Assembly: GCF_014635905.1 (NCBI RefSeq)
Contig: NZ_BMDS01000001.1
Coordinates: 434,001 to 498,000, forward strand
Source: Limosilactobacillus caviae
Lineage (GTDB): Bacteria > Bacillota > Bacilli > Lactobacillales > Lactobacillaceae
Direction: 5' to 3'
DNA length: 64,000 nt
The position numbers and the translations under genes are program-made. Numbering within the stretch: position 1 is the first letter of the stretch; each line of letters begins with the position of its first letter. The notes below the pieces were generated by a model that did no database searches, had not been told where the DNA came from, and saw nothing but the letters and a program-made list of their open reading frames with translations. Below, piece by piece: positions 42,387-43,475 of this stretch.

Positions 42387-43475
42387 CTAGCCGACCTTAA
42401 CTGGTGTGTCAGCTTTTTCACCATTAATTAGTTTGAAATTATTATCGAAAGCTTTAAGAACCATGTTACGGACAGCGTGAGTGGTGTAGAAAGCGGTGTG
42501 AGGGGTGACTAATACATTTGAGCGATCAATTAAGTCCTTCAAGCGCTTGTCAGGGAATTCTTTACCACGCCAATCCTCATTAAAGATACCGACTTCATCT
42601 TCATAAGTATCCATTACGAAGCCAAAAATCTTTCCACTGTCTAAGCCTTCAATAACTGCATCGGTATCGACCAATGCACCACGGGAACAGTTAACAATTA
42701 CAACGTTGTCTTTCATTTTAGCAATTGATTCCCGGTTAATCATGTGGAAGTTTTCCTTAGTTGCTGGAACGTGAAGTGAGATTACATCAGCTTGAGCGTA
42801 GAGGTCATCAAGACTGTCCACGTAGTAACCCTGCTTCTTTAATTCTGGATTTTCAAATGGGTCATAAGCGATTACTTTAGCTCCAAAGCCTTCCATGATT
42901 TGCATGTAAACTTGTCCAATGTGACCGGTACCGATAACACCAACAGTTTGATCACGGACTTCACGACCAATTGTTGGTGCCCAGCGTAAGTCACCATTAG
43001 CAATCTTTTCGTCTAATACTTTAGTTTGACGAAGAACCCGAGCAGTTTGAATAGCAGCGTGTTCTGCGATTGCGTTAGGGGAATAAACAGGAACGTTAGT
43101 GATTTCAAATCCTAGTTCTTTTACCTTGTTCATATCAATATTATCGACACCAACGTTACGCAATGACATCTTTGTAATGCCTTGATCTGCAAGTGCTTGA
43201 AGGGTATCAGCGGTGTAATCAAGTTGTTGATAAACGACAACGCCATCAGCACCCTTTGCCTTTTTAGCAGTTTCAGGAGTCAACAGTTCGCTGGTATATT
43301 CTACTTCAACTTCTGGATGGTTCTCGGCCCATTCTTTGACATAAGGTTCTTCATCTTTACGGATGCTGAACGCAAAAATTTTTTTGTTAGTGCTGGAAGA
43401 ATTTTGCATAGATTGATTTAGTACTTGTTTGACAATCTTTTTAACTAGTTCTGGGTTTACATCAACGTTAGCCAT
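42387..43475 (-). CDS. D-lactate-type 2-hydroxyacid dehydrogenase with N-terminal encapsulation-peptide-like extension
   Basis: A 362-residue NAD-dependent D-2-hydroxyacid dehydrogenase. The catalytic domain starts near residue 31 ([16 protein letters not shown], the usual D-LDH start) and has the NAD loop [25 protein letters not shown] with the catalytic Arg, [10 protein letters not shown] with the Glu region and [12 protein letters not shown] with the catalytic His. It is about 30 residues longer than usual. Residues 7-21 ([15 protein letters not shown]) form an amphipathic helix, then an S/N-rich linker. GAGG precedes the first ATG, and no ribosome-binding site precedes Met23. Substrate (pyruvate or other 2-oxo acid) is not certain. 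Confidence 0.92.

Follow-up and report, generated by a model that had tools for sequence, protein, structure and literature searches.

The DNA that we analysed, a stretch of 64,000 nucleotides from Limosilactobacillus caviae (hereafter the window), encoded a D-lactate dehydrogenase (D-LDH) with an N-terminal extension resembling the encapsulation peptides (EPs) of propanediol/glycerol (Pdu) microcompartment proteins. Table 1 lists this gene and its parts together with pdu genes of the same window. The D-LDH gene was only loosely linked to pduC, which lies approximately 44 kb away; it stands where the B12 cluster ends, past the B12 and haem genes, and PduP, PduQ, PduL and PduW were all retained in the species of the window.

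Table 1. Features of the window, with positions, strand and the basis of each assignment.
Feature	Position	Strand	Basis or remark
D-LDH gene with predicted N-terminal EP, 362 aa	42387..43475	-	ORF list, family models, solved-structure alignment
D-LDH core, residues 31-362	42390..43385	-	D205, R265, E294 and H326 present, invariant in 14 tagged homologues
EP helix codons, residues 5-22, amphipathic	43410..43463	-	PduD-EP profile, predicted helix, pN/pS
Linker codons, residues 23-30	43386..43409	-	Length and sequence differ between species; pN/pS
GAGG ribosome-binding site of the first ATG	43485..43488	-	10-13 nt before the ATG
PduL, EP-bearing, pdu cluster	2742..3386	+	In window
PduO C-domain protein, EP-bearing	4790..5263	+	In window
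PduP, the shell's known aldehyde dehydrogenase, NADH-producing	5266..6693	+	In window
PduQ, NADH-consuming alcohol dehydrogenase	6684..7832	+	Longest ORF; true start probably slightly downstream

The encoded protein carried the Pfam domains 2-Hacid_dh and 2-Hacid_dh_C, both above cut-off. The best NCBIfam model was the D-LDH subfamily NF006374, which with 304 bits remained under its cut-off of 356, but the closest solved proteins, the D-LDHs 2dld and 1j49, matched far better (593-616 bits), and we therefore read the NCBIfam models as covering other D-LDH groups. The four residues named in Table 1 were located via the 1j49 alignment; we take R265, E294 and H326 to be the catalytic Arg, Glu and His and D205 to be the NAD-selecting Asp of D-LDHs, in role as well as in numbering. 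Judged by its sequence, the core is that of a canonical NAD-type D-lactate dehydrogenase, with predicted activity. The next D-LDH relative in the genome of the window was only 48% identical. Control of the tagged gene by CcpA was considered and rejected, as 12 upstream regions held one cre site with one mismatch and the window held none.

The initial annotation had described about 30 residues ahead of the normal D-LDH start, and both this extension and its place in the reading frame were borne out. The alignment with 2dld and 1j49 spanned query residues 32-360, leaving residues 1-31 without a counterpart in these proteins. A GAGG likewise preceded the corresponding start codon in all other tagged genes with upstream sequence compared, genome G034 excepted, and the internal Met23 was not conserved among relatives.

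EPs have been defined as terminal amphipathic helices of about 15-20 residues on a flexible linker (excerpts of PMC8217296). The extension fits this definition, consisting of 30 residues with a helix, predicted at modest confidence, and a variable linker. In the AlphaFold model the helix spans residues 8-26 and the core begins with a strand at residue 31 (mean pLDDT 77.7, pTM 0.59, alignment depth 14 sequences), with pLDDT values of 64, 71 and 50 for residues 1-10, 11-20 and 21-30. We searched 1618 ORF N-termini (1541 distinct; the background ORFs were mechanical and not annotated genes) with a profile built from 21 distinct PduD EPs and no D-LDH. The D-LDH ranked first among the 88 ORFs of the window (E = 8.7e-5), followed by PduL (0.026) and an unrelated ORF (2.5), and it was again the best of the window when the profile was run against whole proteins (E 0.0013). 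Besides the window gene, the profile matched all 14 tagged D-LDH ORFs of the fetched regions, at E values between 2.7e-6 and 0.015, and none of the eight untagged D-LDH-like ORFs or fragments in these regions. Further matches were PduL (best 0.0037), PduO-C (0.0044) and a small new ORF (0.016). The reverse search was weak, with the D-LDH N-terminal profile finding the PduD N-terminus just after pduC in three genomes (G187, G209 and G091; E 0.002-0.004).

Pairwise alignment pointed to the same partner. Against the PduD EP of genome G000 the extension scored 61 in an alignment including MADIDENLLRKIVKEVLNETNQ, a score reached by none of 2000 shuffles; scores were 39 for PduO-C (0 shuffles as high), 36 for PduE (0) and 34 for PduL (4). 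The pduD gene sits just upstream of the window (L071:12377). The similarity between extension and EPs is thus real at the sequence level, with PduD as the best partner. The helix spacing had initially been likened to that of PduO-C, PduL and PduP; the likeness to Pdu EPs stood, and the one to PduP did not, since the match with the PduP EP (score 21) was equalled by 312 of 2000 shuffles. For the same reason we rejected an origin of the tag from PduP. We also rejected the hydrophobic spacing by itself as proof of an EP, as 13 of the 88 ORF N-termini in the window share it, the tagged D-LDH among them. The hydrophobic moment of the D-LDH N-terminus ranked sixth of 88, with three non-Pdu ORFs higher, and amounted to 0.74 compared with 0.76-0.80 for PduP, PduL and PduD.

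Over the 14 tagged genes pN/pS was 0.33 in EP residues 5-22, 0.72 in the linker and 0.10 in the core. Purifying selection acts on the EP codons and far less on the linker, and the hydrophobic face of the extension was retained across four genera. Selection and predicted helix together match what a functional targeting helix joined to a free linker would show. Sequence, predicted helix, selection and genome context all support the initial assignment of the extension as a Pdu-type EP. The EP of PduD itself has been proven in Salmonella (excerpts of PMC12108088), a genus other than Limosilactobacillus.

Among 50 genomes of the genus the extension was found in G000, G005, G021, G029, G030 (two copies), G034, G038 and G049. 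At least six more tagged genomes (G156, G318, G360, G368, G403 and G417) were seen among the matches listed for 396 family genomes; for pduC-negative genomes of the family these matches reached down to E of about 1e-122, so that diverged tagged D-LDHs may be missed. A scan of named genomes gave 20 loci, of which 15 were tagged: Levilactobacillus zymae, koreensis, fujinensis, enshiensis, andaensis and suantsaiihabitans, Lentilactobacillus parafarraginis, Secundilactobacillus collinoides, Limosilactobacillus panis, caccae and rudii, and four with provisional names. Outside the Lactobacillaceae, the order-level search (395 genomes, E 1e-6) found no EP-tagged D-LDH; 67 genomes matched, nearly all Lactobacillaceae. 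The phylum-level search (398 genomes, E 1e-5) added none and matched only the genome of the window; its reach was so short that even untagged D-LDHs did not pass the threshold, and tagged ones whose core has diverged could be missed. Both samples include Lactobacillaceae. Within the genomes searched, tagged D-LDHs were seen only in this family.

For a phylogeny we kept D-LDH ORFs of at least 280 aa with at least 45% identity that reached query residue 340 and merged identical cores, which gave 60 rows, 59 of which (identity of at least 50%) entered the tree. All 19 tagged rows fell into one clade of 25 rows (96/88), and the tag state required 3 changes on the tree compared with a shuffled mean of 16.4. 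The history of the tag is one gain and about two losses. The six untagged rows inside the tagged clade came from G002 (L. agrestis), G033 and G035 (L. reuteri WF-AA1-C), G004 (L. balticus), G036 and G037. Untagged orthologues were present in four pduC-positive Limosilactobacillus genomes, namely G004, G033 and G035 (93-94% identical) and G022 (80%), a point against a role of the tagged D-LDH as Pdu cargo.

Several of these regions had peculiarities of their own. Genome G030 and that of L. panis (G029) hold several D-LDH copies, tagged and untagged, as well as a fragment (L057:4372-10482 and L059:3176-9275); the copies lie near flavodoxin-like genes, and G030 has in addition an extra shell-vertex (PduN-like) gene. 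In G034 the surroundings of the D-LDH (L065:8520-9900) consisted of coding sequences end to end on one strand, with a stop TAG directly followed by the next ATG, so that this record looks like an artificial concatenation of coding sequences. It was excluded as evidence on synteny and upstream regions and still counted among the 14 tagged genomes. The stretch directly before its D-LDH, which looks like the tail of a different coding sequence, matches window positions 42226-42303, which lie beside the D-LDH and after an ATPase gene (41106-42224).

Among 424 genomes pduC was present in 53, the tagged D-LDH in at least 14 and both in 12 (Fisher p 3e-10, uncorrected for kinship). A kinship-corrected test on 57 of the 59 tree rows, two without pdu status being left out, offered 3 independent pairs and gave no significance, having no power with a single gain. 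The physical linkage was tight: in nine of nine loci outside Limosilactobacillus (L051-L056, L107, L112 and L118) the tagged D-LDH lay side by side with an SDR gene and divergent from pduA, and in G030 one tagged D-LDH was found between cobT and pdu genes, 4.5 kb from pduC. Occurrence of the extension in species without pdu genes, which the initial annotation had set against encapsulation, was seen in part. At least two of the at least 14 tagged genomes, G049 (99% complete) and G021 (75% complete), had no pduC, PduP, PduQ or BMC-domain gene; 12 tagged genomes do have pduC. Of the D-LDHs in the tree, 40 of 59 were without the helix pattern, yet at least two genomes without BMC-domain genes carry the extension. 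The 41 pduC-positive genomes without the tag comprised G004, G033, G035 and 38 others, G022 among them.

Many metabolosomes have been described as having a common core chemistry, in which a signature enzyme is joined by an aldehyde dehydrogenase, a transacylase and an alcohol dehydrogenase (excerpts of PMC8217296). With a PduL-type transacylase this core was complete in the window. It was incomplete in the tagged genomes G156, G318, G360, G368, G403 and G417, with pduL judged at the locus only. We counted PduP and PduQ as not found where a genome-wide search gave no match at E 1e-60, and PduP as present in G330 and G342, where its matches were broken into pieces. By this measure PduP was not found in 12 of the 53 pduC-positive genomes, that is in 8 of 12 tagged versus 4 of 41 untagged ones (Fisher p 2e-4, uncorrected for kinship). 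The eight tagged genomes were the six just named, all outside Limosilactobacillus, in which PduQ was also not found, and G029 and G030, which retain PduQ despite having no PduP match; PduP was present in the tagged genomes G000, G005, G034 and G038. The loci of the six contained no pduL, pduP, pduQ or pduW between pduJ and pduU. The four untagged genomes without PduP were G159 and G397, in which no BMC-domain gene was found, and G205 and G305, which have BMC-domain genes and PduQ. That the latter two have no tagged D-LDH, although PduP was not found in them, argues against the D-LDH as a cargo supplying NADH.

Some further observations concern these loci. G397 (L080) and G159 (L087) encode diol dehydratase, reactivase and PduO, and with no BMC-domain gene found in either genome they would have a shell-less diol dehydratase. 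In G305 a 30-codon stub resembling the PduP EP and followed by a stop (L074:10170-10280, +) is found where pduP is missing before pduQ. All six PduP- and PduQ-less loci (L053:3309-3578 on the - strand, L051, L052, L054, L055 and L056) encode between pduO-C and pduU a conserved small protein of 66-81 aa, in the place of pduP-Q-W of the window. It follows the pattern MDQGKIExxIRxIIAQE...SPLLxxLRDSVxxKI...SxLLxxIKxDVxxxIG, in which an EP-like first helix (E 0.016 in L056, 2.2 in L053) precedes two more helix-like repeats, and is perhaps a linker protein of the enzyme core.

The SDR encoded beside the D-LDH showed no EP, and no luminal reductase was recognised in the PduQ-less loci, which likewise argues against the D-LDH as a cargo supplying NADH. 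Two of the nine SDRs were scanned against NF052562 and reached 337 and 339 bits (cut-off 400), the other seven being 90-100% identical to one of these. Based on Ala-Ile-Glu where the relative 8yav has Gly-Arg-His, the enzyme is perhaps NAD- rather than NADP-linked. We rejected the SDR as a unique partner of the tagged D-LDH, as proteins 66-73% identical to it also occur in PduP-positive Limosilactobacillus, both tagged and untagged.

We consider it moderately probable that an NAD-dependent D-LDH gained a PduD-like EP and became a cargo enzyme of the Pdu microcompartment that balances NAD(H), likely by oxidizing D-lactate to feed aldehyde reduction; we infer encapsulation, direction and physiological role from the sequence data. 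The shell lumen would hold a partly private NAD(H) pool, in which the D-LDH would interconvert D-lactate and pyruvate with D-lactate + NAD+ -> pyruvate + NADH as the favoured direction. The NADH would be spent on reducing 3-hydroxypropionaldehyde (or propionaldehyde). Reducing power would cross the shell, which NADH passes poorly, in the form of lactate and pyruvate, and ATP would be gained if pyruvate is converted further to acetate. As the potentials of the lactate/pyruvate and aldehyde/alcohol couples lie near each other, the supply of aldehyde and the removal of pyruvate would set the direction. Where PduP is lost the D-LDH might be the main luminal source of NADH; in the species of the window, which keeps PduP, PduQ, PduL and PduW, it might be an extra valve working in either direction.

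The direction is where the initial annotation and our reading part. In the textbook Pdu compartment the NADH produced by PduP is consumed by PduQ, and the annotation had the encapsulated D-LDH drain NADH onto pyruvate. The D-LDH would then form D-lactate and re-oxidize the NADH made by PduP, so that more aldehyde could enter the ATP-yielding oxidative branch. This would agree with the complete set of PduP, PduL, PduQ and PduW in the species of the window and with the D-LDH reaction itself, which normally favours pyruvate reduction. Nevertheless we regard it as unlikely and found the drain onto pyruvate not supported, since the 8 of 12 tagged pduC-positive genomes in which PduP was not found would have no known internal source of NADH, and since PduQ already re-oxidizes NADH where PduP exists. 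If no known luminal enzyme makes NADH, oxidation of D-lactate would be favoured over reduction of pyruvate. Two points weigh against such a need for D-lactate oxidation. The species of the window already has PduP as NADH supply, and Clostridium perfringens is reported to convert 1,2-propanediol into propanol by means of a pdu cluster without pduP (excerpts of PMC11992839). A PduP-less pathway need not have such a luminal NADH source, and by this analogy NADH can evidently reach the reductase otherwise.

Two other explanations do without a metabolic role inside the shell. The tag might be a leftover tolerated on a cytosolic D-LDH, as could be suggested by its presence in G049 and G021 without any BMC-domain gene and by its absence from G033, G035 and G004, which kept pduC; the distant next relative in the genome of the window may allow the tagged enzyme to serve general lactate formation. 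Purifying selection on the EP codons compared with the linker, the hydrophobic face conserved over four genera and the constant pdu linkage outside Limosilactobacillus make this quite improbable. Alternatively, the tag might serve assembly, with an abundant EP-bearing protein condensing the enzyme core where PduP and PduL were lost. EPs drive the condensation of cargo, and the PduD EP was the most robust of those tested (excerpts of PMC12339742); PduP is missing in most tagged pduC-positive genomes and pduL in the loci compared, and the small EP-like protein described above, which fills the same gap, also speaks for such a need. We judge assembly as the sole purpose to be very unlikely, because the residues for catalysis and NAD binding do not vary, constraint is strongest in the core of the gene and PduP is kept in four tagged genomes.

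Under the preferred reading of a D-LDH cargo that balances NAD(H), one could go further and suggest an undescribed type of Pdu compartment in Levilactobacillus, Lentilactobacillus and Secundilactobacillus. It would consist of diol dehydratase and shell without PduP and PduQ and with no pduL or pduW in the locus, and the EP-tagged D-LDH would be its sole recognised encapsulated NAD enzyme. D-lactate would be the electron donor for the aldehyde derived from glycerol or diol (or for 2-butanone), lactate and pyruvate would shuttle electrons across the shell, and the gene of the window would encode the same enzyme in a species with the full pathway kept. We offer this proposal tentatively and regard it as rather doubtful.

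The enzyme and the principle of targeting are each known, and their predicted combination and the type of locus were not found described. The initial statement that no microcompartment D-LDH is on record agrees with the literature searched, in the portions available, outside of which lies the 2008 study of the L. reuteri metabolosome. No D-LDH cargo was described in the available portions of PMC5193401, PMC4045878, PMC10410858, PMC9320016, PMC7961827, PMC11784251, PMC4149025 and PMC11992839. If true, a compartment lacking three of the four core enzymes and housing a D-LDH would represent a different redox design, and would make it testable how luminal NAD(H) is balanced with the cytosol. Aldehyde reduction driven by D-lactate would fit, and might explain, the cofermentation of lactate and glycerol that Veiga da Cunha and Foster reportedly described in 1992 for Lactobacillus brevis and L. 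buchneri. The natural fusion of an EP to a D-LDH could also be used as a targeting tag.

Among known systems, the PduP-less pdu cluster of C. perfringens resembles the PduP-less tagged genomes in running a diol dehydratase pathway without PduP; it differs in retaining the NADH-using alcohol dehydrogenase DhaT, and a tagged D-LDH is not mentioned in the excerpts of PMC11992839. The SDR adjacent to the D-LDH is nearest in kind to the R-specific alcohol dehydrogenase (SDR; NF052562, PDB 1nxq), whose model cut-off it does not reach. PduP and PduQ are NAD-linked like the D-LDH, and PduP likewise has an N-terminal EP; they act on the aldehyde whereas the D-LDH acts on D-lactate and pyruvate, and neither was found in six of the tagged genomes. 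With the fermentative D-LDHs of Lactobacillus (2dld, 1j49) the tagged enzyme shares the core over nearly the full length together with the catalytic and NAD residues, and it differs from them in about 30 extra N-terminal residues and, outside Limosilactobacillus, in its position beside pdu genes. Closest to the extension is the EP of PduD, the medium subunit of diol dehydratase, which is similar in length, in its hydrophobic face and in the variable linker that follows; there it is part of PduD, whereas here it is fused to an unrelated enzyme, a D-LDH.
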